A stretch of DNA of 64,000 bases, from NCBI GenBank assembly GCA_945952465.1, contig CAMFIB010000001.1, forward strand, positions 1,550,001-1,614,000, in the 5' to 3' direction. This DNA is from an uncultured Pseudomonadota bacterium. Its GTDB lineage: Bacteria; Pseudomonadota; Gammaproteobacteria; Burkholderiales; Burkholderiaceae_C. Each line of letters begins with the position of its first letter. The stretch's first letter is position 1. Below are positions 2,775 through 64,000 of this stretch, piece by piece. The notes below the pieces were generated by a model. That model was not told the DNA's origin. It was given only the letters and a program-made list of their open reading frames with translations, and did not search any database. The position numbers were made by a program, and so were the translations under genes.

Positions 2775-5429
2775 GTGACCGGCCAACCCCCTTCCGTCTC
2801 CGCGCCCGGCGTGCGCTCGCCCGAGGGCCACACGCCGATGATGCAGCAGTACCTCGGCCTCAAGGCCGGGCATCCGGCCACGCTGCTGTTCTACCGGATG
2901 GGCGACTTCTACGAGCTGTTCTGGGAAGACGCCGAGAAGGCCTCGCGGCTGCTCGACATCACGCTCACCCGGCGCGGCCAGTCGGCCGGCGAGCCTGTGA
3001 CGATGTGCGGCGTGCCCTTCCATGCGCTGGAGAGCTACCTCGGCAAGCTCATCCGGCTGGGTGAATCGGTGGCGATCTGCGAGCAGGTCGGCGAGGTGGG
3101 CGGCAAGGGGCCCGTGGAGCGCAAGGTGGTGCGGGTGGTGACGCCCGGCACCGTGACCGACAGCGAATTGCTGGCCGACAAGGCCGAGGCGGTGTTGCTG
3201 GCCGTGCACCAGGGGCCGCGCGCGGCGCGGGCCGACGGCTGCGGCCTGGCCTGGTTCAGCCTGACCCAGGGCGTGGTGCACCTGGCCGAATGCGCGGCCG
3301 ACGACGTGGCGGCGTGGGTGTCCCGCATCGGCCCCAGCGAACTGCTGTACAGCGCGGGCGGCACCGATGCCTTCGAGGCGCTGCTGAAAGGCCTGCGCGG
3401 CGCCACCGGCCCCACCCTCACACCGCGCCCCGCCTGGCAGTTCGACGCCACGCTGGGCCAGCGCAAGCTGACCGAATCGCTGGGCGCGGCCAGCCTGGCC
3501 GGCTGGGGCGCCGACACGCTGGCACAGGCCCACGCCGCAGCCAGCGCGCTGGTGGCCTTTGCCGAGCACACGCAGGGCCGCGCGCTGACGCATGTGGCGG
3601 GCATCCGCGTGGTGCGGCCGAATGAGCTGATCGACCTGCCGCTGACCACCCGGCGCAATCTGGAGCTGGTGCAGACGCTGCGCGGCGAGGCATCGCCGAC
3701 GGTGCTCTCCCTGCTCGACACCTGCATGACCGGCATGGGCAGCCGCGCGCTGCGCCAGTGGCTGCTGAGCCCCAAACGCGAGCGGCTGGAGGCGGTGCAG
3801 CGGCTGGAAGCCATCGACGCGCTGCGCGGCGGCGACGGCCACGGCCCCTGGCGCGCCCTGCGCGAACGGCTCAAGGGCTGCGGTGACGTGGAGCGCATCA
3901 CGGCCCGCGTGGCGCTGCGCCAGGTGCGGCCGCGCGAACTCGTCGCGCTCGGCTTGACGCTACACAAATGTGAGCAACTTATCGAGCATTCACACCGACT
4001 TCCGGCACTTTTGACTCAGATTTCAGCCGATCTGGCACCACCACCCGGCGTGGCGGCGCTGCTGGCCCGCGCGCTGCTGGAAGAACCGGCGGCGCTGGTG
4101 CGCGACGGCGGTGTGATCGCCACCGGCTTCGACGCCGAACTGGACGAGCTGCGTGGCATTGCCGAGAACTGCGACGCCTTTCTGCTGGCGCTGGAAACAC
4201 GCGAGAAGGCGCGCACCGGCATCGCCAACCTGCGGGTGCAGTTCAACCGGGTGCACGGCTTCTTCATCGAAGTCACCACCGGCCAGCTCGACAAGGTGCC
4301 CGACGACTACCGCCGCCGCCAGACGATGAAGAACGCCGAGCGTTTCATCACGCCGGAACTGAAGGCCTTCGAAGACAAGGCGCTGTCGGCGCAAGACCGC
4401 GCGCTGGCGCGGGAAAAGTGGCTGTACGAGCAGTTGCTCGACGCGCTGCAGCCCTTCGTGCCGCCGCTGGCCCGGCTGGCCGCCGCGCTGGCCTCGCTCG
4501 ACGCGCTGGCCGCGCTGGCCGAGCGTTCGCTCACGCTCGATTGGTGCGCGCCGCAGTTCGTGCGCGAGCCCTGCATCGAGATCGAGCGGGGCCGCCACCC
4601 GGTGGTGGAAGCCCGGCTGGCCGAGACCGGCGGCGGCGCGTTCATTGCCAACGACACGCGGCTCGGTCCCCGGCAGCGCATGCAGGTCATCACCGGCCCC
4701 AACATGGGCGGCAAATCGACCTACATGCGGCAGGTGGCACTGATCGTGCTTCTGGCCAGCATGGGCTCTTATGTACCCGCCTCGGCCTGCCGGCTCGGCC
4801 CGGTCGACGCCATCCACACCCGCATCGGCGCCGCCGACGACCTGGCCAACGCGCAGTCGACCTTCATGCTGGAAATGACCGAGGCCGCGCAGATCCTGCA
4901 CGGCGCCACATCGCAGTCGCTCGTGCTGATGGACGAAATCGGCCGCGGCACCTCCACCTTCGACGGCCTGGCGCTGGCCAGCGGCATCGCCGCGCAGTTG
5001 CACGACAAGGCCCAGGCCTTCACGCTGTTCGCCACCCACTATTTCGAGCTGACCGAATTCCCGGCGCGCCACCATGCGGCGGTGAACGTGCACGTGAGCG
5101 CCACCGAAGCGGGGCACGACATCGTGTTCCTGCACGAGATCCAGCCCGGGCCGGCAAACCGCAGCTACGGCATACAGGTGGCGCGGCTGGCCGGCATGCC
5201 GGCGGCGGTGGTCAACCATGCGCGCCACACGCTGGCCGCGCTGGAAGGCCAGCAGGCCGCCGCAAGCGCGCAGGTCGACCTGTTCGCCGCACCGGCCGAC
5301 ACCGCGGCGCCCGAGCCCCACGCCCTAGAATCGGCGCTGGCCCGCATTCAGCCCGACAGCCTGACGCCGCGCGACGCGCTGGACGCGCTGTATGCGCTGA
5401 AGAAAATCGCCGCCCAACACCAGCACTGA
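2775..5429 (+). CDS. mutS: DNA mismatch repair ATPase MutS
   Basis: MutS recognises mispairs and starts methyl-directed repair with MutL. GTG at 2775 is chosen because it gives 884 residues and the family N terminus ending in HTPMMQQYL; an ATG at 2838 would cut into that block. The mismatch-probing Phe-x-Glu motif is F45-Y-E47. The connector and clamp follow, with the clamp signature [12 protein letters not shown] near 495-506. The ATPase has Walker A GPNMGGKS at 641-648 and Walker [17 protein letters not shown] near 715-730. Residues 395-417, a variable stretch, are encoded by a copy of the R1 repeat (3959-4024) with AT-rich codons. The next gene starts 35 bases downstream on the same strand, so co-transcription is likely. 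Confidence 0.98.
3959..4024 (+). repeat. R1 repeat copy inside mutS
   Basis: AT-rich island beginning GCTACACAAAT and holding the core ACCGACTTCCGGC, then TTTTGACTCAGATTT. It aligns over its whole length with the intergenic copy at 25393-25459 and is translated in frame as residues 395-417 of MutS. Confidence 0.6.
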
Positions 5430-5464
5430 CCCGCGGCGCCCCGCCGCCCTCACCGCGCCCCACC

Positions 5465-6298
5465 ATGACCTACTGCGTCGCCATCAAACTCAACGCCGGC
5501 CTGGTGTTCCTGTCGGACTCGCGCACCAACGCGGGGCTGGACAACATCAGCACCTTCCGCAAGATGATCGTCTACGAAAAGGCCGACGACCGCTTCATGG
5601 TGCTGCTGTCGGCCGGCAACCTCAGCATCTCGCAATCGGTGCGCGAAATCCTGCAGATCGAGCAGTTGAAGGAGCGCGAGGACGACGGCGAGGAAGCCAT
5701 CACGATCTGGAACGCCAAGAGCATGTTCGACGCCGCCCGCGTGCTCGGGAATGCGGTGCGCCATGTGTACGACCGCGACGCCGCCGCGCTGAGCAACGCC
5801 GGTGTGGAGTTCAATGTGTCGCTGATCTTCGGCGGGCAGATCAAGGGCGAGAAGATGCGGCTCTTCCAGGTGTATTCGGCCGGCAACTTCATCGAAGCCA
5901 CGCCCGAAACGCCGTATTTCCAGGTCGGCGAGTCCAAGTACGGCAAGCCGGTGCTCGACCGCGTCATCACGCCCGACACCCCGCTCGACGAAGCCGCCAA
6001 ATGCGCGCTGGTGTCGATGGACTCCACCATGAAATCCAACCTGTCGGTCGGCCTGCCGCTCGACCTGGTGGTCTACGAAGCCAACAGCTTCGCCACAGAC
6101 CGCATCGCCTGCATCGACCAGGACAACCCCTACTTCCAGATGCTGCACAGCACCTGGGGCCAGAAGCTGCGCGCGGTGTTCGACGAGCTGGAAGACCCGG
6201 TCTGGGACGGCAGCCGCACCGACACCCCGCTCAAGCTCACCGCCTCCCGGCACAAGGCGCTGAAGAAAATTTCAGACCCCGGCGAAAAGCTGATCTGA
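5465..6298 (+). CDS. Anbu-type proteasome-like peptidase
   Basis: The 277-residue protein begins Met-Thr-Tyr-Cys-Val-Ala, so removal of Met exposes Thr1, the Ntn-hydrolase nucleophile. The stretch LVFLSDSRTNAG follows, as in proteasome beta, HslV and Anbu subunits. The long C-terminal part (SVGLPLDLVVYEANSF, then DNPYFQMLHSTWGQ) is what marks Anbu (ancestral beta subunit) rather than HslV. Anbu proteins assemble into helical or ring-like complexes; their substrates are poorly known. In many genomes Anbu lies with alpha-E, transglutaminase-like and ATP-grasp genes. None of those is beside it here: mutS is 35 bases upstream and a LexA-box operon follows. Family call is firm, function is open. 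Confidence 0.88.
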   Translation: MTYCVAIKLNAGLVFLSDSRTNAGLDNISTFRKMIVYEKADDRFMVLLSAGNLSISQSVREILQIEQLKEREDDGEEAITIWNAKSMFDAARVLGNAVRHVYDRDAAALSNAGVEFNVSLIFGGQIKGEKMRLFQVYSAGNFIEATPETPYFQVGESKYGKPVLDRVITPDTPLDEAAKCALVSMDSTMKSNLSVGLPLDLVVYEANSFATDRIACIDQDNPYFQMLHSTWGQKLRAVFDELEDPVWDGSRTDTPLKLTASRHKALKKISDPGEKLI

Positions 6299-6334
6299 GC
6301 GGTGGGGCGCGCCACGCGCCGTTACACAAAACCG

Positions 6335-6364
6335 CTGGCGACCGTTGCGCATTAACTGTATATT
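6335..6364 (+). promoter_or_regulatory. Possible sigma-70 promoter of the radical SAM-UdgX operon
   Basis: A TATATT hexamer at 6359-6364 resembles a -10 box; a weak -35 (CTGGCG, 6335-6340) lies 18 bases upstream. Transcription would start near 6371, the first base of the GTG start codon, giving a leaderless mRNA. The -10 sits inside the LexA box, as expected for LexA repression. Inferred from position only. Confidence 0.4.
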
Positions 6365-6371
6365 TGTACAG
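6356..6371. promoter_or_regulatory. LexA (SOS) box
   Basis: CTGTATATTTGTACAG is an exact match to the CTG-T-N8-ACAG consensus bound by LexA in beta- and gammaproteobacteria. Its last G is the first base of the GTG start codon of the radical SAM gene. No other copy of this 16-base pattern was noticed in the window. Confidence 0.8.
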
Positions 6372-7633
6372 TGAATGTTCAGCGCAAACTCGCCATCCTC
6401 GCCGACGCCGCCAAGTACGACGCCTCCTGCGCGTCCAGCGGCACCACGCAGCGCGACTCGCTCGGCGGCAGCGGCATCGGCTCGACCGAAGGCTCGGGCA
6501 TCTGCCACAGCTATGCGCCCGACGGCCGCTGCATCTCGCTGCTGAAAATCCTGCTGACCAACTTCTGCCAGTACGACTGTCTGTACTGCGTCAACCGCGC
6601 CAGCAGCAACGTGCCGCGCGCCCGCTTCACGGTGGAAGAAGTGGTCAACCTCACGCTCGATTTCTACCGGCGCAACTGCATCGAGGGGTTGTTCCTCTCC
6701 AGCGGCATTGTCAAAAGCCCCGACCACACGATGGAGCTGGTGGTCGAGGTGGCGCGCCGGCTGCGCGAGGTGCATGACTTCCGCGGCTACATCCACCTCA
6801 AGACCATCCCCGACGCATCACCCGAATTGCTGGCCCAGGCCGGCCGCTACGCCGACCGGCTCAGCATCAACATCGAGCTGCCCACGCTGCAGGCACTCGA
6901 CGAATTGGCGCCTGAAAAAGACGGCGCGGCCATCCGCCGCTCGATGGCACGGCTGAAGACGCACATCGACGACGCCAAAGGCGAGGCGCACGACGCTGCC
7001 GCCAAGCCCGTCACCTCGCTGCCGCAAGCCGGCCCCAAACGCGCCCGTCCGCCCCGCTTCGCGCCGGCCGGCCCGAGCACGCAGATGATCGTCGGCGCCG
7101 ACGCGAGCGACGACCACACCATCCTCGGCACCAGCGCCCGGCTGTACGGCAGCTACGGCCTGCGCCGGGTGTATTACTCGGCCTTCAGCCCCATTCCGGA
7201 TTCGGCCGCAGCGCTGCCCCTCAAGGCCCCGCCGCTGATGCGCGAGCACAGGCTGTACCAGGCCGACTGGCTCATCCGTTTCTACGGCTACGAGGCCGAC
7301 GAGATCGTGCCGCCTGAGCACAGCGGCATGCTGGCGCTCGACGTCGATCCCAAGCTGGCCTGGGCGCTGGCCCACCGCGAACGTTTTCCGGTCGACCTCA
7401 ACACCGCGCCGCGCGCGCTGCTGCTGCGGGTGCCGGGGCTGGGCACCACGGCAGTCGACCGGCTGCTGCGGTCGCGCGCGGTGCGCCGCATCCGCGGGGA
7501 AGATGTGAAGCGGCTGCGGGTGCCGCTGGCCAAGGTCATGCCCTTCGTGGTGGCCGACGGGCACCGGCCGCCACAGCAACCACGGGCGCTGGCGCCGCTG
7601 CGGCATCTGGCGGTGCAGGAGACGCTGTTTTGA
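6371..7633 (+). CDS. Putative DNA modification/repair radical SAM protein
   Basis: The 420-residue protein carries the radical SAM cluster motif C66-x3-C70-x2-C73 (CQYDCLYC) and the family N terminus KLAILADAAKYDASCASSG. It belongs to the radical SAM family that is regularly linked to a uracil-DNA-glycosylase-like gene, as here. The C-terminal region has helix-hairpin-helix-like sequence (NTAPRALLLRVPGLG), suggesting DNA contact. GTG at 6371 is the only start that preserves the family N terminus, and there is no Shine-Dalgarno sequence before it. The LexA box abuts it. The stop overlaps the next start by four bases (TTGA), so the two are translationally coupled. The chemical reaction is not known to me. 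Confidence 0.88.
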   Translation: MNVQRKLAILADAAKYDASCASSGTTQRDSLGGSGIGSTEGSGICHSYAPDGRCISLLKILLTNFCQYDCLYCVNRASSNVPRARFTVEEVVNLTLDFYRRNCIEGLFLSSGIVKSPDHTMELVVEVARRLREVHDFRGYIHLKTIPDASPELLAQAGRYADRLSINIELPTLQALDELAPEKDGAAIRRSMARLKTHIDDAKGEAHDAAAKPVTSLPQAGPKRARPPRFAPAGPSTQMIVGADASDDHTILGTSARLYGSYGLRRVYYSAFSPIPDSAAALPLKAPPLMREHRLYQADWLIRFYGYEADEIVPPEHSGMLALDVDPKLAWALAHRERFPVDLNTAPRALLLRVPGLGTTAVDRLLRSRAVRRIRGEDVKRLRVPLAKVMPFVVADGHRPPQQPRALAPLRHLAVQETLF

Positions 7634-9120
7634 GCGCGTCGCTGGCGCGGCGGGAGCCGGTCAGCGTGGTGCTGGCCGACGAAACCGACTTTGCGGGTTT
7701 CCGCCGCGCCGCCCGCGCGCTGGCCGCGCAGGGCGTGCCGCCTGAAGCGGTGATGTGGTTCACCGCCACCGACGCATGCAATGCGCTGTTCGCCACGCAG
7801 GCCTCCGTGTTCGCTGAGCCGGGCAAGACCGCCGCCGTCGCCGTGCCCGCCACTTTCGTCGCCCTGTGCGAAACCGTGGTGCAGCACGACGACCCGCAAC
7901 GCTTCGCGCTGCTGTACCGGCTGCTGTGGCGGCTGCAGCATGAGCCGTCGCTGCGCCACGACCCGCTCGACGCCGACGTGCTGCTGGCCCGCCAGATGGC
8001 CCGCGCGGTGCGGCGCGACCAGCACAAGACCACCGCCTTCGTGCGTTTCCGCCCGCTGAACGACGGCAGCGCCGGGCCGCTGCATGTGGCCTGGTTCGAA
8101 CCTTCGCACCACACGGTGGAGGCGGTCGCGCCCTTTTTCATGCGGCGCTTCGCCAACATCCGCTGGGCCATCCTCACGCCGCGCCGCAGCGTGCGTTGGG
8201 AGCCGGCCTCGGCGGCGCTGCCCGAAGGCCGGCTGGTGTTCGGCCCCGGCGCGCGCAAGGAAGACACGCCGTTGGCCGATGCCGGTGAGGCCCTCTGGCT
8301 CACCTACTACGCGAACATCTTCAACCCCGCGCGGCTCAAGCTGCGCATGATGGAAAAGGAGATGCCGCGCAAATACTGGCGCAACCTGCCCGAGGCCGAA
8401 CTGATCGCGCCGCTGGCGGCGGCCGCCACCGAACGCAGCGGCCGCATGGTGGCTGAAGCGCCGACCACGCCACGCCGCAAGGTCGTCACCCTCGCCCGCG
8501 CCCCAACGCCCAACGGGCCGGCGCAGACGCTGGAAGCGCTCAACGCCATGGCGCAACGCTGCCGCGAATGCCCGATCGGCGAGCACGCCACGCAGGCGGT
8601 GGTGGGCCAAGGGCCGCGCGAGCCGCTGCTGATGTTCGTCGGCGAACAACCGGGCGACCAGGAAGACCTGCGCGGCCAGCCTTTCGTCGGCCCCGCCGGC
8701 CAGTTGTTCGACCGCGCGCTGGCTGAACTGGGCGTGGCCCGCGACACGGTGTACGTGGCCAACGCGGTCAAGCACTTCAAATACGAGATGCGAGGCAAAC
8801 GCCGCATCCACAAGACCCCCGCCCAGCGCGAAGCCGCCGCCTGCGCCCACTGGCTGGAAGACGAGATCCGGCTCGTCAATCCCGCCGCATTGGTGGCGCT
8901 GGGCGCCACCGCCGCCCGCTCGCTGATGGGCGAGGCGGTGGCCGTGACCCGCGAGCGCGGCCAGTGGCAGCGGCGGGCCGACGGCCGGCCGGTGCTGGTC
9001 ACGCTGCACCCGTCGGCCCTGCTGCGCGCTGACCCTGCCGGTCATCAGCAGGCCTGGGCCGATTGGCTGGCCGATCTGCGCTGCGCGCTCGACCCGCCGA
9101 AGCTGTTGGTCCGCTCCTAA
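7630..9120 (+). CDS. DUF4130 domain fused to UdgX-type uracil-DNA glycosylase
   Basis: This 496-residue protein joins two parts. Residues about 1-275 form the DUF4130 region. Residues about 300-496 form a family-4-like uracil-DNA glycosylase with iron-sulfur Cys residues (C311-x2-C314 among them), motif A GEQPGDQEDL near 338 and HPSALLR near 460. The loop KRRIH (390-394) is the hallmark of UdgX, where the His (here His394) bonds covalently to the abasic site left after uracil removal and traps the enzyme on DNA. The start is TTG at 7630, overlapping the radical SAM stop. The role inferred is SOS-induced handling of uracil or a modified base with its partner. Confidence 0.9.
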   Translation: MSASLARREPVSVVLADETDFAGFRRAARALAAQGVPPEAVMWFTATDACNALFATQASVFAEPGKTAAVAVPATFVALCETVVQHDDPQRFALLYRLLWRLQHEPSLRHDPLDADVLLARQMARAVRRDQHKTTAFVRFRPLNDGSAGPLHVAWFEPSHHTVEAVAPFFMRRFANIRWAILTPRRSVRWEPASAALPEGRLVFGPGARKEDTPLADAGEALWLTYYANIFNPARLKLRMMEKEMPRKYWRNLPEAELIAPLAAAATERSGRMVAEAPTTPRRKVVTLARAPTPNGPAQTLEALNAMAQRCRECPIGEHATQAVVGQGPREPLLMFVGEQPGDQEDLRGQPFVGPAGQLFDRALAELGVARDTVYVANAVKHFKYEMRGKRRIHKTPAQREAAACAHWLEDEIRLVNPAALVALGATAARSLMGEAVAVTRERGQWQRRADGRPVLVTLHPSALLRADPAGHQQAWADWLADLRCALDPPKLLVRS

Positions 9121-9127
9121 AAACGAA

Positions 9128-9171
9128 GCTACAGCGCCTTATTGCACGCTGACTTCAAGCCCATTTCATCC
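9128..9171 (+). repeat. R1 repeat copy, intergenic
   Basis: GCTACAGCGCC, then GCACGCTGACTTCAAGCCCA and TTTCATCC: the shorter form of R1, just after the UdgX stop codon and before the convergent uppP gene. Confidence 0.6.
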
Positions 9172-9194
9172 ACGACCATCCCATGGACCCGGGC

Positions 9195-10019: not shown

Positions 10020-10111
10020 AACAGCTCCCCGGATTTTTGCGACGCGGGATTATCGCCCCGCTCCGCTGACCGACCGCTTAAGTGGTTGCGCCGGGGTTAA
10101 TCCGGGGTTTT

Positions 10112-10127
10112 CGTGACATTCGTCACG
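10112..10127. promoter_or_regulatory. CRP/FNR-type inverted repeat upstream of the protease gene
   Basis: CGTGACATTCGTCACG is a perfect inverted repeat with a GTGA-N6-TCAC core, 66 bases before the protease start at 10193. Confidence 0.35.
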
Positions 10128-10192
10128 GCACTATCGCACAGCGTTTGGGTGACAATGGCGCAGTCAACGGCTGTAGGTCAAAGGTTCTCATC

Positions 10193-11518: not shown

Positions 11519-11528
11519 CCACCGGAGC

Positions 11529-11556
11529 ACTCCCGGCGAAAGGCCGGCGGGGTTTT
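11529..11556 (+). terminator. Weak terminator after the protease gene
   Basis: Short stem CCGGC / GCCGG around a GAAAG loop followed by CGGGGTTTT. Confidence 0.4.
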
Positions 11557-12758: not shown

Positions 12759-13112
12759 TCAGCGGTAGTAGCCGCCGTGCGGGTAGTGGCGGTGGTAGTA
12801 GCCGGGGCCGCCGTAGTAGACCGGGCGCGGCGCGTAGTACACCGGGGCGGGGGCGTAGTACACCGGGGCCGGGCGGTAGACCGGCGGCGGCGCGTAGTAC
12901 ACCGGCTGGGGCGGGTAATAGACCGGCGCCGGCTGGACGTAGCCATAACCGCCGTAGCCGACATTGCCGACCGAGACACCCACGCCCGGGGCGCCGATGC
13001 CGATCGAGAAACCCACGTCGCTGCGCGCCTGCGCGGCGCTGGCGCCGAACAGGGCCGCGGTGGCCACGGCCGCAACGGCGGCGAAAGAGGCGATGGAACG
13101 GGACTTCAACAT
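12759..13112 (-). CDS. Small exported Tyr/Pro-repeat protein
   Basis: The 117-residue protein has a signal peptide (cleaved near AAQARSD), a short Gly/Val-rich segment (GFSIGIGAPGVGVSVG), then about six repeats of the form PVYYAP/PVYYPP/PVYRPA and a His/Tyr/Gly-rich end. Proteins of this look are common in Comamonadaceae and are thought to be surface or periplasmic; no function is established. It is convergent with the His-rich protein gene and divergent from glnS, from which 141 bases separate it. Confidence 0.75.
   Translation of the reverse strand: MLKSRSIASFAAVAAVATAALFGASAAQARSDVGFSIGIGAPGVGVSVGNVGYGGYGYVQPAPVYYPPQPVYYAPPPVYRPAPVYYAPAPVYYAPRPVYYGGPGYYHRHYPHGGYYR
12809..12935 (-). repeat. 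Short tandem repeats coding for the PVYYxP units
   Basis: About six imperfect units of roughly 18-21 bases built on GTAGTACACCGG (plus-strand sense). Such runs can vary in copy number by slippage. Confidence 0.65.
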
Positions 13113-13253
13113 GATGCTTGCTCCTGATGTGCAGGTGTTTTCTGACCTGATGATGCTATTAACGCACCAGCCCCCTGTTTAGATACCACACCCACGGTCA
13201 AAGTCGTAGCCAACCGTAACAGCGTGGGCGCTCTCGCTCCTAGAATCGGAACA

Positions 13254-15038
13254 ATGAGCGCCCCCGCAACCCCGACCACCCCCGCCCGCCCCAGCAATTT
13301 CCTGCGCCAGATCATCGAAAGCGACATCGCCCAGGGCACCTATGCCCAGCGCCACTGGGGCGGCGGCCCCGGCGACGCCGCGCAGCAGGCCGCAGGCCCG
13401 CTCGACCCCGCCGCCATCCGCACCCGCTTTCCGCCCGAACCCAACGGCTACCTGCATGTGGGCCACGCCAAGAGCATCTGCCTGAACTTTGGCCTCGCCC
13501 GCGACTACGGCGGCGTGTGCCACATGCGCTTCGACGACACCAACCCCGAAAAGGAAGACACCGAGTACGTCAACAGCATCCTGGACGCCGTGCAGTGGCT
13601 GGGCTTCGGCTGGGACGCCAACGGCACCAGCCACCTCTACCAGGCCAGCGACTATTTCGACTTCATGTACCGCGCCGCCGAGCACCTCATCGAGGCCGGT
13701 CATGCGTATGTCGACGAACAGACGCCCGAGCAGATGCGCGTGAACCGCGGCGACTTTTCCACGCCCGGCAAAGACAGCCCCTTCCGCGCCCGCACGCCCG
13801 CCGAAAACCTGACCCGCTTCAGGGAGATGCGCGACGGCGCCCTGCCCGACGGCGCCGCCGTGCTGCGCGCCAAGATCGACATGGCTAGCCCCAACATCAA
13901 CCTGCGCGACCCCGCCATCTACCGCATCCGCCGCGCCGAGCACCACCACACCGGCAACCGCTGGTGCATCTACCCCATGTACACCTTCGCGCACCCCATC
14001 GAGGACGCGCTGGAGAACATCACACACAGCATCTGCACGCTCGAGTTCGAAGACCAGCGCCCGTTCTACGACTGGCTGCTCGACCGGCTGCGTGAGGGCG
14101 GCCTCATCAACGCGCCGCAGCCGCGCCAGTACGAATTCGCCCGCCTCAACCTCACCTACGTGCTCACCAGCAAACGCAAGCTCAAGCAGCTCGTTGATGA
14201 AAAGCACGTGAGCGGCTGGGACGACCCCCGCATGCCCACCATCGTCGGCCTGCGCCGGCGCGGCTACACGCCCGAGGCCATCCAGCTCTTCGCCGAACGC
14301 ATCGGCGTCAGCAAGGCCGACTCCTGGATCGACTACAGCACTCTCGAAGGCTCCCTGCGCGACGACCTCGACCCCAAGGCCGCCCGCGCCATGGCCGTGC
14401 TGGACCCGGTGAAGCTCGTCATCGAGAACTGGGACGAGGTCATGGGCGCCGGCGCGCTCGATGCCTGCAGCGCACCCGTCCACCCCCACCAACCCGAACG
14501 CGGTCGCCGCGAGTTCAATTTCGGGCGCGAGTTATGGATCGAGCGCACCGACTACGAAGACGTGCCGCCCAAGGGCTACAACCGGCTCTACCCCGGCAAC
14601 AAGGTGCGGCTGAAATACGGCCATGTCGTCGAGTGCATCGGCGCTACAAAAAATGAAGCAGGAAACGTAGAAGCAGTGCTGGCCAGGCTCATACCCGACA
14701 CCAAAAGCGGCACCCCCGGCGCCGACAGCGTCAAGGTCAAGGGCGTCATCACCTGGGTCGGCGCCGCAGACGGCGTGCCCGCCGAAGTGCGCCTCTACGA
14801 CCGTTTGTTCACCGTGCCCCAACCCGGCAGCGGCGACCGCAACTTCCTCGACGAGATCAACCCCGACAGCCTGAAAACCGTCACCGCCATCGTCGAGCCC
14901 TCACTCGCCCAGGCCCAGCCCGACGACAAGTTCCAGTTCGAACGCCACGGCTACTTCGTCGCCGACCGCAAGGACCACGCGGCGGGCAAGCCGGTGTTCA
15001 ACCGGGTGACGGGGATGAAGGACAGCTGGGCGAAATAG
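13254..15038 (+). CDS. glnS: Glutaminyl-tRNA synthetase
   Basis: GlnRS charges tRNA-Gln. ATG at 13254 gives 594 residues, close to the 554 of E. coli plus small insertions. The class I HIGH-type motif is H68-V-G-H71 in PNGYLHVGHAKS, and the second signature is TSKRKL near 305, in place of KMSKS. The tRNA-acceptor and anticodon-binding beta-barrel domains follow (ERTDYEDVPPKGYNRL, LYDRLFTVPQPG). Residues about 464-482, in the distal barrel, are encoded by an R1 repeat copy and replace the segment found at this point in other GlnRS proteins. The gene is monocistronic in appearance. Confidence 0.97.
   Translation: MSAPATPTTPARPSNFLRQIIESDIAQGTYAQRHWGGGPGDAAQQAAGPLDPAAIRTRFPPEPNGYLHVGHAKSICLNFGLARDYGGVCHMRFDDTNPEKEDTEYVNSILDAVQWLGFGWDANGTSHLYQASDYFDFMYRAAEHLIEAGHAYVDEQTPEQMRVNRGDFSTPGKDSPFRARTPAENLTRFREMRDGALPDGAAVLRAKIDMASPNINLRDPAIYRIRRAEHHHTGNRWCIYPMYTFAHPIEDALENITHSICTLEFEDQRPFYDWLLDRLREGGLINAPQPRQYEFARLNLTYVLTSKRKLKQLVDEKHVSGWDDPRMPTIVGLRRRGYTPEAIQLFAERIGVSKADSWIDYSTLEGSLRDDLDPKAARAMAVLDPVKLVIENWDEVMGAGALDACSAPVHPHQPERGRREFNFGRELWIERTDYEDVPPKGYNRLYPGNKVRLKYGHVVECIGATKNEAGNVEAVLARLIPDTKSGTPGADSVKVKGVITWVGAADGVPAEVRLYDRLFTVPQPGSGDRNFLDEINPDSLKTVTAIVEPSLAQAQPDDKFQFERHGYFVADRKDHAAGKPVFNRVTGMKDSWAK
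14643..14694 (+). repeat. R1 repeat copy inside glnS
   Basis: GCTACAAAAAATGAAGCAGG, then GAAGCAGTGCTGGCCAGGCTC: a diverged copy sharing the GCTAC start, the A-rich left half and the GCTGGCCAGG form of the core. It is in frame. Confidence 0.45.
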
Positions 15039-15473: not shown

Positions 15474-15536
15474 GCTCCTGATTTGATAGCTAGAAAGCGC
15501 CATTCCGCGCTGACTTGCGGCCAGTTTCATGCCTTT
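15474..15536 (+). repeat. R1 repeat copy overlapping the ylqF stop codon
   Basis: GCTCCTGATTTGATAGCTAG, then CGCGCTGACTTGCGGCC and AGTTTCATGCC. The TCA at 15527-15529 within it is the TGA stop of ylqF on the minus strand. Confidence 0.65.
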
Positions 15537-16465
15537 TTTCCCTTGCGAAGGGCCTCGCGGGCGTCTTTGCGGGCCTGGCGTTCGGCGTCTTCGGCGGCGG
15601 CAGCAGCCACCCAGCCCGCAAATTCTTCGGGCGTTTCCAGCGTGATGCGGCCGAGCGTGGTGGTGCGGAATTCGGTGATGACGATTTCGGCGGCCTTCTG
15701 CAGATTGACGCGGCCTTTGCCGAGCAGCGCGCCGCGCTGGCGGCCGATGGTCTCCAGCACTTCCTCGTCGCGCATGGTGGGCACGGCAGCGGCGTCGAGC
15801 CGGTAGCGGGCGGCGAGCAAGCCGGGGTAGTGGCCGCGCAGCCGGGCCATCAGCTCCAGCGCCACGTCTTCCTCGTCATAAGCGTTGCGGCCGACCGCGC
15901 CGCTGGCGGCCAGGTTGTAGCCGCTCTGCGGCACCGAGATGCGCGGCCACAGCAGGCCGGGCGTGTCCCACAACAGAAAGTCGTCGGCCAGGGCGATGCG
16001 CTGCTCCAGCTTGGTCACGCCGGCCTCGTCGCCGGTCTTGGCGTGGCGCTTGTTGGTGAGCGCGTTGATGAGGGTGGATTTGCCGACGTTGGGCACCCCG
16101 CCGATCAGCACCCGCATCGGCTTGACCATGCCGCCGCGGCCGGGCGCCAGCGCATGGCAGGCGGCGATGACGGTGGCCTGCACGCCGGCGGTGGCGTTGG
16201 CCTGCAGCGCGATGGCCTGGGTGTCGGGCTTGGCGTTGTAGTGGGCCAGCCAGGCGGCGGTGCGCGCGGCATCGGCCATGTCTTCCTTGTTGAGGATCTT
16301 CAGCGTGGGCTTGTGGCCGGTGAGCTCGGCCACCAGCGGGTTGGCGCTGGAGCCGGGCAGCCGCGCGTCGAGCACCTCGATGACGACGTCGACTTCCTTC
16401 ACCCGCTCGGTCATCGCCTTGCGGGTGAGGTGCATGTGCCCGGGAAACCACTGGATGCTGGCCAT
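15527..16465 (-). CDS. ylqF: Ribosome biogenesis GTPase YlqF/RbgA-like
   Basis: The 312-residue protein is a circularly permuted GTPase: the G4 motif (NKED, near 60) comes before G1 (GGVPNVGKSTLINAL, near 120) and G3 (DTPG, near 167). It opens with the family block IQWFPGHM. RbgA of Bacillus helps mature the large ribosomal subunit; the same role is inferred here. A Lys/Ala-rich C terminus ends within an R1 repeat that supplies the stop codon. The ATG at 16465 is the natural start. Confidence 0.93.
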   Translation of the reverse strand: MASIQWFPGHMHLTRKAMTERVKEVDVVIEVLDARLPGSSANPLVAELTGHKPTLKILNKEDMADAARTAAWLAHYNAKPDTQAIALQANATAGVQATVIAACHALAPGRGGMVKPMRVLIGGVPNVGKSTLINALTNKRHAKTGDEAGVTKLEQRIALADDFLLWDTPGLLWPRISVPQSGYNLAASGAVGRNAYDEEDVALELMARLRGHYPGLLAARYRLDAAAVPTMRDEEVLETIGRQRGALLGKGRVNLQKAAEIVITEFRTTTLGRITLETPEEFAGWVAAAAAEDAERQARKDAREALRKGKKA

Positions 16466-22562: not shown

Positions 22563-22628
22563 GCTCCTGAAAACATAGCTGAAACGCCAGCAATGGCGCT
22601 GGCACTGGGCCTATTTCTTTCAGAATTT
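22563..22628 (+). repeat. R1 repeat copy, intergenic
   Basis: GCTCCTGAAAACATAGCTGA, then CAATGGCGCTGGCACTGGGCC and TTTCAGAATTT. Lies directly after the terminator of the RcnB-family gene. Confidence 0.65.
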
Positions 22629-25392: not shown

Positions 25393-25459
25393 GCTACTGA
25401 TTCAATAGCTAGAAATCCAGCATTGGCGCTGACTTCCGGCTGATTTCATTCTGAATTTG
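25393..25459 (+). repeat. R1 repeat copy, intergenic (best reference copy)
   Basis: GCTACTGATTCAATAGCTAG, then ATTGGCGCTGACTTCCGGC and TTTCATTCTGAATTT. It has all modules of the element and was used as the reference for the others. Confidence 0.7.
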
Positions 25460-44600: not shown

Positions 44601-45329
44601 TCAGCCTTTGCGCGGCGCGGCGGCCTTCTTGGCGGCCAGCTTGGCCGCGGCCTTTGCGGCGGGTTTCGCCGGGGTCTTGGCCGTCGCCTTCACCGGCGCC
44701 TTCGTCGGCGGCTTGGCCGGTGCCTTGGCTGGAACCTTGGCGGCCGCGCGCTTTGCCGGCGCTGCAACGGCCGACTTCTTGGCCGCCGGCTTGCGCTTGG
44801 GGGGTGCGGTTTCGGCCTTGGCGGCGCGCTCGGCGGCTTTGATCGCGCTCTTGGCGGCGCTGCTGCGGCGCAGCGACGGGCTGGCCGGCTCTGCCGCCTT
44901 CTTCACCGGCGCCTTGACCGGCAGCGCCGGCTTGGCGGCACCGAGCTTGAGGCGCACCGGCGTTTCGCCCCACAACTCTTCCAGGTGGTAATACTGGCGG
45001 ATCGCCGGCTGCATGATGTGGACCACGGCGGGGCCGCAGTCGACGATGATCCATTCGCCGTTGTCTTCGCCCTCGATGCGCGGCTTGTTGAAGCCCGCCT
45101 CCTTCACCGCGTCGCGCACGCTGGCGGCCAGCGCGCGGGTCTGCCGGTTGGAGGTGCCGGACGCCACGACGACGCGTTCGAACAGCGGCGACAGCTTCTC
45201 GGTGTTGAAGATCTGGATGTCGTGCGCCTTCACGTCCTCGAGTCCGTCGACGATGGCGCGCTGCAGTTTCTGGGTGTTCTTCTTCGCGGCCGCTTCGGTG
45301 GTGGTCGTCGTGTCGGGGGTTGTCGTCAT
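44601..45329 (-). CDS. rsfS: Ribosome silencing factor RsfS with a histone-like tail
   Basis: RsfS binds L14 and blocks subunit joining in starvation. The core domain (about residues 18-132) has [34 protein letters not shown] and [30 protein letters not shown], all family hallmarks. The usual length is 105-130 residues. Here a further 110 residues rich in Lys, Ala and Pro follow (units such as PAKAPAKP and KPAAKKSA), resembling histone H1-like tails. It overlaps nadD by one base (TGATG). Confidence 0.95.
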
Positions 45330-45952
45330 CAGGCGTTCAGGTAGAGGTGGTGTTGGTCAATATAGCGTGCAACGGCGGGCGGGACCAGCGCGTCGACGGG
45401 CTGGCCGGCCGCGACGCGGCGGCGGATGTCGGTGGCGCTCAGGGCCGTGGGTGCCACCGGCAGGCGGGAAAACCGCCCTCCAGCCGCAATTTCAGCATCA
45501 AATGTGCCGCCAGTCAGCGTGGAATCTGGTCTTTCAGCTATCACAATAGTAGCAATACCGAGAATCTGGCGCCAGCCGTGCCAGTTGGTCAATTGGCGCC
45601 CCTGGTCTTCGCCCAGCACCAGCCACAGCAGGGTGTCGGGTTGCTCGGCCTGCAGCTCGTGCAGCGTGTCCAGCGTGTAGCTGGGGCCGCTGCGGCGCAG
45701 CTCGCGCGGGTCGACCTCGGTGCGCGGCAGCTCGCCGAAAGCCAGGCGGGTCATGGCCAGCCGGTCTTCGGCGGGGCTCAGGCTGCGGGTCTTGTGCCAG
45801 GCCGCGCCGGTCGGCACCACGCGCAGTTCGTCGAGCGCGAGCGCGTCAACTGCCACCCGGGCCAGCGCCACATGGGCATTGTGCGGGGGGTCGAAGGCGC
45901 CGCCGAACACGCCGGTGCGGCGGCCAGCCGGGGCGGCGGAACTCAGACCCAT
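45329..45952 (-). CDS. nadD: Nicotinate-nucleotide adenylyltransferase NadD
   Basis: NadD makes deamido-NAD from nicotinate mononucleotide and ATP. ATG at 45952 gives 207 residues. The nucleotidyltransferase motifs are [18 protein letters not shown] near 14-31 and the C-terminal [22 protein letters not shown] with the ISST-like element. Residues about 134-155 are encoded by an R1 repeat copy with rarer, AT-rich codons. It overlaps hemF by 10 bases and rsfS by one. Confidence 0.95.
45488..45553 (-). repeat. R1 repeat copy inside nadD
   Basis: Minus strand: GCTACTATTGTGATAGCTGA, then TTCCACGCTGACTGGCGGC and GCTGAAATT. It matches the intergenic reference copy module by module, and it is translated in frame. 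Confidence 0.65.
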
Positions 45953-52799: not shown

Positions 52800-54878
<2,079 letters not shown>

Positions 54879-59000: not shown

Positions 59001-59551
59001 AGCCGGTTTTCGGTCTCGCGGCGGCGCTCCTTGTACTTGGAGACGCCGGCGGCCTCTTCCAGGAACAGCCGCAGCTCCTCGGGCTTGGATTCGATGATGC
59101 GGCTGATGGTGCCCTGGCCGATGATGGCGTAGGCGCGCGGCCCCAGGCCGGTGCCGAGGAACACGTCCTGCACGTCGCGGCGGCGCACCGGCTGGTTGTT
59201 GATGTAGTAGCTGCTGGTGCCGTCGCGCGTGAGCACGCGCTTGACGGCGATTTCGGCGAACTGCGCCCACTGGCCGCCGGCCCGGTGGCTGGCGTTGTCG
59301 AACACCAGCTCCACGCTGGCCCGGCTGGCCGGCTTGCGCAAATTGGTGCCGTTGAAGATGACGTCCTGCATGGACTCGCCGCGCAGCTCGCTGGCGCGCG
59401 ACTCGCCCAGCACCCAGCGCACCGCGTCCATGATGTTGGACTTGCCGCAGCCGTTCGGCCCGACCACCCCAACCAGCTGGCCGGGCAGCAGGAAGTTGGT
59501 CGGTTCGACGAAGGACTTGAAACCGGAAAGTTTGATCGAATTCAGGCGCAC
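56030..59551 (-). CDS. smc: Chromosome segregation protein SMC
   Basis: SMC is the core of condensin. GTG at 59551 gives 1173 residues and the family start VRLNSIKLSGFKSF. Walker A is GPNGCGKSN near 32-40, with the Q-loop region after it. Two long coiled coils flank a hinge (about 500-660, GLKPLADWLRLGDAAQRG and nearby). The signature HLLSGGEKALTAIALVFAIF and Walker B PFCLLDEVDAPLDD are in the last 120 residues. It heads smc-zipA-ligA. The 102 bases between it and dapC must hold two divergent promoters. Confidence 0.96.
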   Translation of the reverse strand: MRLNSIKLSGFKSFVEPTNFLLPGQLVGVVGPNGCGKSNIMDAVRWVLGESRASELRGESMQDVIFNGTNLRKPASRASVELVFDNASHRAGGQWAQFAEIAVKRVLTRDGTSSYYINNQPVRRRDVQDVFLGTGLGPRAYAIIGQGTISRIIESKPEELRLFLEEAAGVSKYKERRRETENRLSDTRENLTRVEDILRELNANLEKLEKQAEVAQTYRTLQADATLRQHQLWLLKGNEAEAEQQRVKADADKAAVDLESRTADLRHVEAEIETIRQSHYAAGDQVNQAQGLLYEASAEVGRLESEIRFVVEGRQRAEQRLAILKEQTTDWTSRREHALAESGTLAEQDETAAERSALLAAQAEEQAMQLPDVEEALRTAQGKANTQRSAVAQVQQQIQVLAADQRNLDDQTRQASSRRERLAGDRQTLAMPDELRLSGMQADLAAAQEEAAATDARQHELQDALPQLEDDRRQRQQTANDEARVHAELAARLEALRVLQDKVRTDGKLKPWLAKHGLDGLPALWSRIHVEPGWENALEAALRERMGALEVSRLDMLRAFANDAPPAKLAFFSPPEAPAAPPAAAHGLKPLADWLRLGDAAQRGLLADWLHGCYTSDGFEAAFAARTQLTAGEAIFLPSGHAVTAHGVSFYAPDSEQAGLLARAQEIENLEKQLKAHALITEESRTALVRAEAALADVSQRLVGARREASASQARAHALQVETLRLVQAAEQARARSQQLDGDLAELDAQLEDLQEKRVAAEARFEELDMQLADSQERHAQLDEQVMAAERKLADAREQQRRLEREAQEAGYAQRSLQERRAGLARELQVAEQQLTAIAADEAHNREELGRLTDAAAQAGLQNALALKLERETTLGARRSEYDDLISRLRASDERRLTLERALDPLRQRINELQLKEQAARLGFEQYVQLLADAQVDVEALRLTVAEGKVRLQGLQGEIDRLGREIAALGAVNLAALDELTSARERKQFLDAQSADLTDAMNTLEDAIRKIDAETRELLSGTFNAVNDHFGRMFPELFGGGNAKLMMTGDEILDSGVQVMAQPPGKKNQTIHLLSGGEKALTAIALVFAIFQLNPAPFCLLDEVDAPLDDANTERYARLVRSMSTETQFLFISHNKIAMEMAEQLIGVTMQEQGVSRIVAVDMESAVGMAEVA

Positions 59552-59653
59552 GGGCGGTACCCCGCAACGGGGTGGAAGGCAGGCCGCCGGCGACGGGGCC
59601 GGCGGCAATCGCGAGAATGATACCGTGGCCGCCTTCCGGGATAATCACGGCCC

Positions 59654-60874
59654 ATGAATCCCCTGCTCTCCTCGCTGCAGCCCTACCCTTTCGAGCGGCT
59701 GAAGCAGCTGTTCGGCAGCGTGGTGCCGTCGGCCGACCACCCGGCGATCAGCCTGGGCATTGGCGAACCCCGCCACGCCACCCCCGAATTCATCAAACAG
59801 GCGCTGACCAGCGGCCTGAACGGCCTGGCGAGCTACCCGACGACGATCGGCGACGCGGCGCTGCGCGAGGCCTTCACCGACTGGCTGGAGCGGCGCTATG
59901 CGCTGGACCTGAACCCGGCCACCCAGGTGCTGCCGGTCAATGGCTCCCGCGAAGCGCTGTTCGCCTTCGCGCAGACGGTGGTCGATGGCTCGAAGCCGGG
60001 CGCCACCGTGGTGTGTCCGAACCCGTTCTATCAAATCTATGAAGGCGCGGCGCTGCTGGCCGGGGCCGAAGTGGTCTATGCGCCCAGCGACCCGGCCCGC
60101 AACTTCGCGGTGGACTGGGACAGCGTGCCGGACGAGGTTTGGGCCCGCACCCAGTTGCTCTACGTCTGCTCGCCCGGCAACCCGACCGGCGCGGTGATGC
60201 CGCTGGACGAATGGCGCAAGCTGTTCGAGCTGAGCGACCGCCACGGCTTCGTCATCGCGTCGGACGAGTGCTACAGCGAGATCTATTTCCGCGCCGAGCC
60301 GCCGCTGGGCGGGCTGGAAGCCGCCGCCAAGCTGGGCCGGGGCGACTTCAAGAACCTGGTGGCGTTCACCAGCCTCTCCAAGCGCAGCAACGTCCCCGGC
60401 CTGCGCAGCGGCTTCGTGGCGGGCGACGCGACGCTGATCAAGGCCTTTCTGCTGTACCGCACCTACCACGGCAGCGCGATGGCGCCGGCGGTGCAGGTGG
60501 CCAGCCATGCGGCCTGGGGCGATGAGGCCCACGTCGAGGAAAACCGGGCCTTCTACAGAATGAAGTTCGAGCAGGTGCTGCCGGTGCTGCAGCCGGCGCT
60601 CGACGTGCAGTTGCCGGACGCCGCCTTCTACCTGTGGGCGCGCATCCCGGAGCACGTGGCCGGCGGCTCCGACACGGTGTTCGCCCGCATGCTGCTGGCT
60701 CAATACAATGTGACGGTGCTGCCGGGCAGCTACCTGGCGCGCGAAGCGGTGCCGGGCGACCCGACCTCCAGCCCCGGTTACGGCCGCGTCCGCATGGCGC
60801 TGGTGGCGGGCCTGCCGGAATGCCTGGAGGCCGCGCACCGCATCGTGGCCTTCACGAAGCAGTTCCCCGAGTGA
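59654..60874 (+). CDS. dapC: Succinyldiaminopimelate transaminase
   Basis: DapC transfers an amino group to N-succinyl-2-amino-6-ketopimelate in lysine/DAP synthesis. The 406-residue PLP enzyme of fold type I has [14 protein letters not shown] near 34, [13 protein letters not shown] near 95, [15 protein letters not shown] near 173, [10 protein letters not shown] and [15 protein letters not shown] near 240-254 with the PLP Lys. It is the first gene of dapC-dapD-pilU-like-dapE; dapD starts 40 bases later after a pyrimidine-rich spacer. Confidence 0.95.
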
Positions 60875-60914
60875 GCCTCTTTTCCTTTTCGCTTTCTTCC
60901 CCTTCTCTTCACCC

Positions 60915-61739
60915 ATGACCCAACAACTCCAGCAGATCATCGACACCGCGTGGGACGACCGCGCCAACCTCTCGCCCAAGGCCGCGCCCAAGGAAGTGAC
61001 GGAGGCGGTGGACCACATCATCAGTGAACTCAACGCGGGCCGCCTGCGCGTGGCCACCCGCGAGGCGGTGGGCCAATGGACCACCCACCAGTGGATCAAG
61101 AAGGCCGTGCTGCTGAGCTTTCGCCTGAAGGACAACGCCGTCATCAAGGGCGGCGACCTCGGCTTCTACGACAAGGTGCCAACCAAGTTCGCCCACATGG
61201 ACGAGGCCGAACTGAAGGAGTCCGGCGTGCGCGTGGTGCCGCCGGCGGTGGCACGCCGCGGCAGCTTCATCGCCAAGGGCGCGATCCTGATGCCCAGCTA
61301 CGTGAACATCGGCGCCTACGTGGACGAAGGCACGATGGTCGACACCTGGGCCACCGTGGGCAGCTGCTGCCAGGTCGGCAAGAACGTGCACCTGTCTGGC
61401 GGCGTGGGCCTGGGCGGCGTGCTGGAGCCGCTGCAGGCCAACCCGACCATCATCGAGGACAACTGCTTCATCGGCGCGCGTTCGGAGGTGGTGGAAGGCG
61501 TGATCGTCGAGGAGAACTCGGTCATTTCGATGGGCGTGTACATCGGCCAGAGCACCAAGATCTACGACCGCGCGACCGGCACCGTGACCTACGGCCGCAT
61601 CCCGGCGGGTTCGGTGGTGGTGTCGGGCAACCTGCCCAGCGCCGACGGCAAGTACAGCCTGTACTGCGCGGTGATCGTCAAGCGGGTGGACGCGCAGACG
61701 CGCGCCAAGACCAGCCTGAACGACCTGCTGCGCGACTGA
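60915..61739 (+). CDS. dapD: Tetrahydrodipicolinate N-succinyltransferase
   Basis: DapD adds a succinyl group from succinyl-CoA to tetrahydrodipicolinate. The 274-residue protein matches the family length. It has a left-handed beta helix of hexapeptide repeats ([18 protein letters not shown], then [38 protein letters not shown]) and the N-terminal helical domain. It lies between dapC and the pilus ATPase gene. Confidence 0.97.
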
Positions 61740-61769
61740 TCTTCAACCCCCGACGACACCAGGAAGACC

Positions 61770-62921
61770 GTGAGCACCGTGGGCACGATGGAGCGCATCC
61801 TGCGGCTGATGGCCGAGCAGCGCGCGTCCGACGTTTTCCTGTCGGCCAACGCGCCGGCCACCATCAAGATCAAGGGCCGGCACGTCGCGCTCAACCCGCA
61901 GATCCTGCCGCCAGACGCACCCCGCGCGCTGCTGGCGGAAATCCTGTCGCCCGTGCAGATGGCGGAGCTGGAGTCGACGGGCGAACTCAACGTGGGCCAC
62001 GGCCTGCCGGGCGTGGGGCGCTTTCGCATCAGCGCCATGCACCAGCGCGGCACCTGCGCGGCGGTGGTCCGCCTGGTCAGCCCGCACATCCCGCGGCTTG
62101 AAGACCTGCAGTTGCCGGAGGTGCTGCGGCAACTCGTCATGCGCAAGCGCGGGCTGATTCTGCTGATCGGCGCAAGCGGCGCCGGCAAGAGCACCACGCT
62201 GGCCGCCATGCTCGACCACCGGAACGAGCACGCCGCCGGGCACATGCTCACGCTGGAAGACCCGATCGAATACACCTTCGAGAACAAGCGGTCCATCATC
62301 AACCAGCGCGAAATCGGCACCGACACCGCGTCGCTGGCGGTCGGCCTGAAGAACGCGTTGCGGCAGGCGCCCGACGTCATCATGATCGGCGAGATCCGCG
62401 ACCGCGAAACCATGTCGGCCGCCATTGCCTACGCGCAGTCGGGCCACCTGTGTCTGGCCACGCTGCACGCCAACAACAGCTACCAGGCGCTGAACCGCAC
62501 GCTGTCGTTCTACCCGGTAGAGGTGCGGCCCACCCTGCTGGGCGACCTGAGCACGGCGCTGCAGGCCATCGTGTCGCAGCGGCTGCTGCGCACGCTGGAC
62601 GGCGGCCTGACGCCGGCGGCCGAAGTGATGCTGAACACGCAATTGGTGTCTGAACTCATCGAGAAGGGCGATTTCTCCGGGGTGAAGGAAGCCATGGAAA
62701 AGTCGCTGGCCGAAGGCTCCCAGACCTTCGAGGAAGACATTGCGCGCCTGATCGGGCAGGGCAAGGTCACCCGCGAGGAGGGCCTGCTGCACGCCGATTC
62801 GCCGACCAACCTGATGTGGAAGCTGGAAAACGGCTTCAAAGCCGGGCAGCCGGCACCGGCGGTGGTGCGCGAGGAAGAGCCGCGCTTCTCCGATTTCACG
62901 CTGGACGTGACCCCGCGATGA
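61770..62921 (+). CDS. PilT/PilU-family type IV pilus ATPase
   Basis: The 383-residue protein starts with GTG at 61770. It has the PilT-like N-terminal domain ([26 protein letters not shown]), Walker [11 protein letters not shown] near 135-144, the Asp box, Walker [12 protein letters not shown] near 207-217 and [16 protein letters not shown] near 222-237. The long C-terminal part ([27 protein letters not shown]) is typical of PilU. PilU-type ATPases power pilus retraction with PilT. It sits 30 bases after dapD and overlaps dapE by four bases, an unusual place for a motility gene. Confidence 0.92.
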
Positions 62922-64000
62922 CGGCCACCCTGCATTTGGCTGAGGCGCTGATCGCCCGCGACTCGGTCACGCCGGCCGACGGCGGCTGCCAAGACCTCAT
63001 CGCCGAACGGCTGAAGCCGCTGGGCTTCGTGTGCGAAGACCTCTCCAGCGGACCCGACAGCTTCCGCGTGCGCAACCTGTGGGCCATTTTGAAACAAAAT
63101 CGGCCGCAAGTCAGCGCCAGTGCTGAATATGTTGCTCCTGAAACCATAGTGTTCGCGGGCCACACCGACGTCGTGCCCACCGGCCCGGTCGATCAATGGA
63201 CGAGCGACCCCTTCGTGCCCACGCACCGCGGCGGCAAGCTGTACGGCCGAGGCGCGTCGGACATGAAGACCTCGCTGGCGGCCATGGTGGTGGCGGTCGA
63301 GGAATTCCTCGCGGCCACGCCGCAGCCGGCCATCAACATCGCCTTCCTGCTGACCAGCGACGAGGAAGGCCCGGCCCACGACGGCACCGTGAAGGTCTGC
63401 GAGGCGCTGCAGGCGCGCGGCGAGAAATTGAGCTGGACCATCGTCGGCGAGCCGACCTCGGTGGAGCGCACCGGCGACATGATCAAGAACGGCCGCCGCG
63501 GCACCATGAGCGGCAAGCTCACGGTGAAGGGCGTGCAGGGCCACATCGCCTACCCGCAGCTCGCGAAGAACCCCATCCACCTGGTGTCTCCCGCGCTGGC
63601 CGAACTGGTGGGTGTGGAATGGGACCGCGGCAACGCCTTTTTCCCGCCCACCACCTGGCAGGTCAGCAACATCCACGGCGGCACCGGCGCCAGCAACGTG
63701 ATTCCCGGCACGGTGGTGATCGACTTCAACTTCCGTTTCTCCACCGAATCCACGCCCGAGGGCCTGCAGCAGCGCCTGGCCGCCGTGCTGGACCGCCACG
63801 GGCTGGACTACGACCTCGCCTGGACCATCGGCGGCCGCCCCTTCATCACGCCGCCCGGCACGCTGGTAACGGCGGTGCAACAGGCCATCTTGGCGGAGAC
63901 CGGCATCACCACCGAACTCTCCACCACCGGCGGCACCAGCGACGGCCGCTTCATCGCGCAGGTCTGCCCGCAGGTGATCGAACTGGGCCCGCCCAACGCC
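62918..64000 (+). CDS. dapE: Succinyl-diaminopimelate desuccinylase, 5' part
   Basis: DapE is a di-zinc M20 peptidase-like enzyme that frees LL-DAP. The gene starts at ATG 62918 (ATGA overlap with the pilus ATPase) and runs off the window after 361 codons; about 20-40 codons are missing. Metal ligands are visible in [12 protein letters not shown] and [10 protein letters not shown], with Glu-Glu in [11 protein letters not shown], as in the family. Residues about 57-77, just before the first metal motif, are encoded by an R1 copy and are not found in other DapE proteins I know. Confidence 0.96.
63086..63149 (-). repeat. R1 repeat copy inside dapE, with inverted left module
   Basis: Minus strand: CAGCACTGGCGCTGACTTGC, then GGCCGATTTTGTTTC. 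The left module GCTCCTGAAACCATAG is present but lies on the plus strand, inverted relative to the other copies. In frame with dapE. Confidence 0.6.

Follow-up and report, generated by a model that had tools for sequence, protein, structure and literature searches.

Among the dispersed sequences described in bacterial genomes, several come close to the element studied here. Repetitive extragenic palindromes (REPs) exist in hundreds of dispersed copies near gene ends, and copies inside genes are frequent in genes of DNA synthesis and repair (section of PMC3733652 used here), while the REP-associated tyrosine transposases (RAYTs) of REPINs are described in the consulted portion of PMC8049555 as domesticated and vertically inherited where they occur in single copy. 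The DNA uptake sequences (DUS) of Neisseriaceae and the uptake signal sequences (USS) of Pasteurellaceae are motifs laid over coding sequence, with genes for genome maintenance among their hosts; dialects of DUS and AT-rich flanks of USS are reported in parts of PMC3630211 and PMC12616744, respectively. The Rickettsia palindromic elements (RPEs) are inserts that lie in frame within conserved genes and have a preferred reading frame. Finally, the betaproteobacterial repeat BRE is about 90 bp long, has 69% G+C and is often tandem, as far as the part of PMC3110155 used here describes it. Here, we report on a 66-bp element dispersed over the genome of an uncultured bacterium of the GTDB family Burkholderiaceae_C (assembly GCA_945952465.1), starting from a stretch of 64,000 nucleotides (contig CAMFIB010000001.1, positions 1,550,001 to 1,614,000) that is called the window throughout. 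Its copies are probably positionally conserved sites that evolve in concert rather than simple inserts.

The window holds eight copies of a gapless pattern, four in genes (mutS, nadD, ligA and dapE) and four between genes. The alignment spans 66 columns with 0.85 bits each and needs no gap, and the G+C content of the copies ranges from 0.43 to 0.55. A profile that has these eight copies in its own training set scores them at 33.9 to 71.3 bits, the next best place in the window reaching 6.3 bits; the copy at 45488 is recovered by a profile built without it. With a matrix trained on 28 copies from outside the window, the eight score 31 to 103 bits while all other places stay at 6 or below; the maximum across 30 pairs of Markov-shuffled windows, scanned on one strand with the same matrix, is -4.9. 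Profile scores and shuffled-window control rule out chance as the origin of the pattern. The core GCGCTGACTT alone, with one mismatch allowed, is seen 7 times against 7.5 expected, which is the chance level, so that the significance rests on the full 66 columns. An initial annotation of the window, made from the sequence alone, had proposed an interspersed element in nine copies. The element itself is real, and so are its copies in frame within mutS, nadD, ligA and dapE in either orientation; the count has to be lowered, since a ninth copy placed in glnS (open reading frame, ORF, 13254-15035, identified by Pfam) finds no match above the 6.3 bits of the best remaining place.

The best-tested copies are those in ligA and mutS. 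The ligA copy is located at 53315..53380 on the plus strand (38.7 bits), antisense to the gene (52800..54872, minus strand; supported by ORF call, orthologue alignment and Pfam), and encodes in this antisense orientation a conserved stretch of LigA. This stretch shows no gap against 80 of 80 orthologues, one of which, L107, carries a 28-residue insert directly ahead of it. The mutS copy (3959..4024, plus strand, 33.9 bits) reads in the same sense as its gene (2838..5429, plus strand; ORF call and comparison with E. coli MutS). Its stretch is gap-free against the genomes G001, G002, G012 and G016, and its alignment with E. coli MutS is interrupted by no more than a single residue, additional in the E. 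coli protein. At these best-tested sites, the element is an overlay on existing sequence, without insertion. An insertion into reading frames after the manner of RPEs, which the initial annotation had suggested, is rejected as sole explanation on the evidence from LigA, MutS and the lengths of host proteins.

Regarding these lengths, 13 comparisons with element-free orthologues reveal proteins of our genome (G000) that are 0 to 13 residues longer and never 22, the size of a whole inserted copy. The excess is zero in five comparisons (LigA, Gph twice, CnoX and RlmJ once each), two residues in both SrkA comparisons, six residues in three (PGI twice, YjeF once), and 12 to 13 residues in the remaining three (RlmJ twice, YjeF once). 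Similarly, DapE proteins encoded with an element in Polaromonas and Rhodoferax exceed those of non-carriers by 4 to 17 residues. The excess of 0 to 13 residues implies that gain of a site can add loop residues, but no whole 22-codon insert. All 28 copies found inside ORFs of G000 outscore each of 4000 synonymous recodings made per copy under genomic codon usage (z 4.6 to 7.6). As the real DNA beats all recodings, the encoded protein is not sufficient to account for the pattern, and codon choice carries the element.

A second site in LigA, at about residue 275 around LKxWGFPVxxxVxxAxGATELIA, was found in Polaromonas (L091), in the Rhodoferax bins L104 and L105, and in L107. It scores 24 to 32 bits and is gap-free against 71 non-carrier loci. 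The ligA region of G001 contains a match of 24.7 bits to its own dialect, which, judged by distance, probably sits at this second site. The second site, to which L277:1356-1398 is counted as well, again involves no change in length.

On the genome level, G000 comprises 3.29 Mb in 23 contigs. A profile search of the whole genome, named in the initial annotation as the test on which the element could fail, returned at least 150 copies, with 38.5 bits as the lowest score among the matches listed, and the proposal survives it. For 108 copies, composed of 105 of the at least 150 listed genome matches and three weaker window copies, we determined the placement: 56 are intergenic, 28 are contained in ORFs and 24 run across the end of one, as classified with a rough codon-usage ORF caller. 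The hosts of the 28 are confirmed by Pfam in 19 cases and by the E. coli comparison for MutS; some of the other eight look spurious. Intergenic copies have a median distance of 10 bp to a gene end and are found between co-oriented (32), convergent (14) and divergent genes (10). The orientation of the copies on the largest contig is random (41 and 41; 42 runs versus 42 expected), and not one of the spacings among 80 copies there is shorter than 1.5 kb (5.3 expected; minimum 1.6 kb). Among 20 identified host genes, six have roles in replication or repair, namely those of MutS, MutL, LigA, RecG, a UvrD-type helicase and DnaX. A comparison with Rfam gave no match except a tRNA, and the consensus fold of the G000 copies consists of three pairs and shows no covariation; together with the occurrence in either orientation to genes, this led us to reject an RNA element.

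The element differs in sequence between genomes and retains many of its places. For the comparison we used G001 and G002, which belong to the same genus as G000, and G012 from another genus. Model R1, built from G000 copies, matches G001 weakly at 58 places, with 36.5 bits at best, while model R2, built from G001 copies, yields at least 150 matches in G001 (best 69.5 bits), 60 in G000 and 41 in G002. At columns 23, 33, 34, 36, 37, 38, 40 and 57, the consensus sequences of G000 and G001 disagree, each with support above 60%. All 15 G000/G001 pairs of copies prefer the matrix of their own genome, by 16 to 58 bits for the G000 and by 25 to 47 bits for the G001 copies.

To find orthologues of the coding sites, we relied on protein or DNA similarity and disregarded the element. 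Along this line, a G001-dialect copy was identified at 13 of 17 testable coding sites: GluQRS, YjeF, DnaX, a UvrD-type helicase, DapE, LpdA, MutL, NadD, a DUF349 protein, CnoX, RlmJ, RecG and MutS. YgjP and HrpA are shared, too, and contribute to the 15 pairs; they were left out of this count because their G001 loci had been chosen for the element. The G001 scores are in-sample for eight of the 13 shared sites; the five outside the training set of the matrix score 36 to 90, as compared with -41 to -56 for the four sites without a copy. The copies of both genomes have no offset in ten of the 13 cases; in DnaX, RecG and the DUF349 protein they are shifted by 9 to 18 nt, and the proteins there differ locally in length. 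A profile trained on named genomes only finds copies at 11 of 13 loci in G012 and at 8 of 12 in G016; the DnaX copy of G012 is displaced by 213 nt and lies in a linker whose length differs.

Within the window, the copies in mutS, nadD and dapE have a G001 counterpart at the same residues. The nadD copy (45488..45553, minus strand, 50.1 bits) runs in the sense of its host, a nadD-like cytidylyltransferase gene (45329..45952, minus strand; ORF call and Pfam). The dapE copy (63085..63150, minus strand, 52.8 bits) is antisense to a dapE-like M20 peptidase gene (62816..64000, plus strand; ORF call and Pfam), which runs off the window, and falls into a loop of variable length. No copy is present in G001 at the place of the ligA copy. 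The four intergenic copies, all on the plus strand, were annotated as such from the beginning, although the first of them starts at 9113 instead of 9128. This copy (9113..9178, 36.0 bits) shares its first bases with the final part of the upstream ORF 7666-9120, stop codon included, and no copy was found at its place in G001; the same holds for G001 at the place of the copy at 22563..22628 (44.5 bits). The copy at 15474..15539 (52.2 bits) reaches into the 3' end of ORF 15527-16465 on the minus strand, and the corresponding place in G001 falls at a contig break. The copy at 25393..25458 is with 71.3 bits the best match of the genome, and the intergenic region of G001 bounded by the same pair of genes contains two copies in the G001 dialect. 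Apart from the element, the ORF at 12786-13124 comprises several degenerate GTAGTACACCGGGG-like repeats (direct repeat family D1).

Half-decayed copies hardly occur. We counted 10 copies of at least 30 bits versus 2 of 10 to 30 bits in 368 kb of G000, and 20 versus 4 in 228 kb of G001, with profiles trained in part on the counted copies; the window matrix trained on outside copies serves as held-out check. This is unlike the continuum expected of neutral relics.

With respect to phylogeny, the element is restricted to a subset of the family. With a general model, 34 of 120 GTDB family members show at least 17 matches and are referred to as carriers, 20 show one to four, and 66 none. Among 78 genomes of other families, seven have one marginal match each (E 0.002 to 0.009, these E-values being rough). 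In named loci, each of which covers at most 22 kb in which an absence can be stated, 29 copies were found in 9 of 80, from Acidovorax, Polaromonas, Ottowia, Rhodoferax and unnamed betaproteobacteria. The element is very rare on plasmids and phages: a G000 copy gave only chance-level matches to both, an Acidovorax copy had no match among phages and 3 among 72,556 plasmid records, the best of them (E 5e-7) lying within cobN, and a G012 copy matched a single plasmid record (E 2e-5).

A candidate for a recogniser of these sites is a RAYT. We tested 22 carriers and obtained a match to PF01797 in 20, in a protein of approximately 230 to 290 residues that mostly exists in one copy (G060 has two; G017 has IS200 copies in addition). 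In all 20 genomes that have it, the gene adjoins gltB (loci L297-L316), and the mean pairwise identity is 64%; the common neighbour and this degree of identity indicate that the RAYT is inherited vertically. Based on these findings we propose that the copies could be fixed DNA recognition sites of about 57 to 66 bp that different genera have inherited at the same places, kept as DNA sequence over whatever the place encodes, and changing in concert to a genome-specific dialect. The recogniser would be an old REP-type system, represented by the single-copy RAYT (an HUH enzyme) beside gltB. The sites may formerly have spread as REP-like elements and may now be held because the RAYT, or a process using it, acts on them; the RAYT would thus recognise the sites, recognition would maintain them, and the host would presumably gain something thereby. 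We favour this old REP-like site set tied to a RAYT tentatively, at slightly less than even chances.

The element resembles REPs and REPINs in its copy number, its position near gene ends and in some replication and repair genes, the single-copy, vertically inherited RAYT, and paired hairpins in the Acidovorax dialect: the hairpin is clear in Acidovorax temperans, with a mean fold z of -2.45 over six copies. It differs from them in its length of 57 to 66 bp at fixed spacing, in the many sites common to genera and in the concerted dialects.

A number of observations tell against the RAYT proposal. Two of the 22 carriers, G022 and G112, gave no PF01797 match, the NCBIfam model REP_Tyr_transpos scores 78.5 bits, just under its cut-off of 80, and the search covered the 22 carriers only. 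An element lies within about 700 bp at 7 of the 20 RAYT loci, which we judge only slightly above background. TnpA-REP proteins need a hairpin, and outside A. temperans the hairpin is unclear, with mean z between -0.8 and -1.3 in G000, G001 and G012 and of -0.2 in Polaromonas; no covariation was found in the left palindrome. The GTAG tag is mostly missing as well: columns 13 to 16 read GTAG in 19, ATAG in 59 and GGAG in 19 of the 108 G000 copies. REPs within genes, according to the section of PMC3733652 cited above, are inserts, mostly at sites that differ between species, and a plain REP is hard to reconcile with the overlay at mutS and ligA, where neither mobility nor insertion was observed, and with the length comparisons, where none of the 13 shows a 22-residue excess. 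Concerning shared positions, four of the 17 coding sites (Gph, PGI, SrkA and LigA) have no counterpart in G001; the first three are present in G012, which makes them old or recurrent sites. In G002 the sites are weak; the G001 profile detects them at 7 of 13 loci with E values of 0.1 or less and scores no higher than 25 bits, a picture that would suit a decaying system or a dialect that the models do not capture. Independent of this, the few copies seen in G022 share a GCCGGC inverted repeat in their middle.

The main rival to a RAYT-held site set is an uptake-sequence-like system, in which the sites would label DNA as self in natural transformation, uptake bias and recombination would drive and keep them, and the dialects would follow the receptor. 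It accounts for overlay, dialects and drive equally well, and is in good accordance with the shared positions, the random orientation, the scarcity of half-decayed copies, the near-absence from plasmids and phages, and the 6 of 20 host genes that serve genome maintenance. In comparison to DUS and USS, the overlay on coding DNA and the dialects by lineage are common traits, but the short core is not: lengths go up to about 13 nt for DUS and to about 32 nt for USS (relevant part of PMC12616744), and the element is with 57 to 66 bp much longer and probably also sparser. In addition, comEC is found in 113 of 120 family members (among the 34 carriers, none was seen in G060 and three pieces in G005) and is thus nearly universal, so that its co-occurrence with the element is uninformative. 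No receptor candidate was identified, and an 11-bp AT periodicity present in G000 (p 0.001) was not reproduced in G001 (p 0.11). We consider this explanation unlikely, though a serious competitor.

Alternatively, the sites could serve chromosome architecture, bound by a nucleoid protein, condensin or topoisomerase and kept by selection. Their spread along the largest contig with none closer than 1.6 kb, the shared positions and the limitation to chromosomal DNA as far as tested would fit such a role. Known sites of FtsK, MatP and ParB show polarity or clustering, neither of which the element displays, and a polar or clustered chromosome site is disfavoured by orientation and spread on contig C1. 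Furthermore, a set carried by just 34 of 120 family members is odd for a core function, and no protein was identified; an architectural role is accordingly rather improbable. Relics of a small mobile element of REP, RPE or miniature inverted-repeat transposable element type, inserted long ago and now decaying, would agree with the element-free orthologues being 6 to 13 residues shorter at YjeF (2 of 2), RlmJ (2 of 3) and PGI (2 of 2), with the shorter non-carrier dapE and with the RAYT in 20 of 22 carriers, but are very unlikely and hard to hold as sole explanation in view of the unchanged length at ligA and mutS, the missing 22-residue excess, shared sites with different dialects and nearly no half-decayed copies.

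The remaining described repeats can be set apart from the element. Like RPEs, it occurs in frame within conserved genes and has a preferred reading frame, an antisense one reading ENRPQVSA; unlike them, it is not an insert at its best-tested sites. As a side observation, many antisense copies inside G000 ORFs (e.g., L005, L020, L003 and L207) use one reading frame, which results in ENRPQVSA-like peptides. BRE also occurs in Polaromonas, Acidovorax and Delftia and sometimes inside coding sequence (same part of PMC3110155); in contrast, the element is 66 bp long, has 43-55% G+C in the window and is non-tandem on the largest contig. BRE was thus set apart by described size, composition and arrangement, not by sequence comparison.

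Regarding earlier descriptions, the initial annotation knew of none, which is correct for the full element in the literature found but not for fragments of it. Table 7 of PMC5217627 (2017) lists GCTTAT(N)5AAGCG with 114 copies in Acidovorax ebreus and ATAGCT(N)22CAAAAG with 125 copies in Polaromonas naphthalenivorans, both presented there as potential novel motifs of unknown role, mostly between genes. By their spacing, both motifs appear to fit columns of the element. The section of PMC5217627 that covers them describes no full element, dialects, overlay or conservation of places, and in the literature found there is no description of the element, its dialects or its overlay.

Our findings underline that a repeat within a gene need not be an insertion. 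Beyond this, they may point to a third, independent genome-wide system of recognition sites, composed of sites of about 60 bp at fixed places that selection, or a drive biased by recognition, would superimpose on coding sequence, with one dialect per genome co-evolving with a single recogniser, be it a domesticated HUH transposase or a DNA-uptake receptor; we put this forward as a conjecture that is possible, yet somewhat more open to doubt than to belief. If true, at least 150 dispersed sites per genome would be kept for a function that dictates codons in mutS, ligA and dapE, and these sites would switch their sequence together between species. The family would then offer a concrete system for studying the role that single-copy, vertically inherited RAYTs play for their hosts or, alternatively, a case of uptake-like self-marking beyond the Neisseriaceae and Pasteurellaceae.

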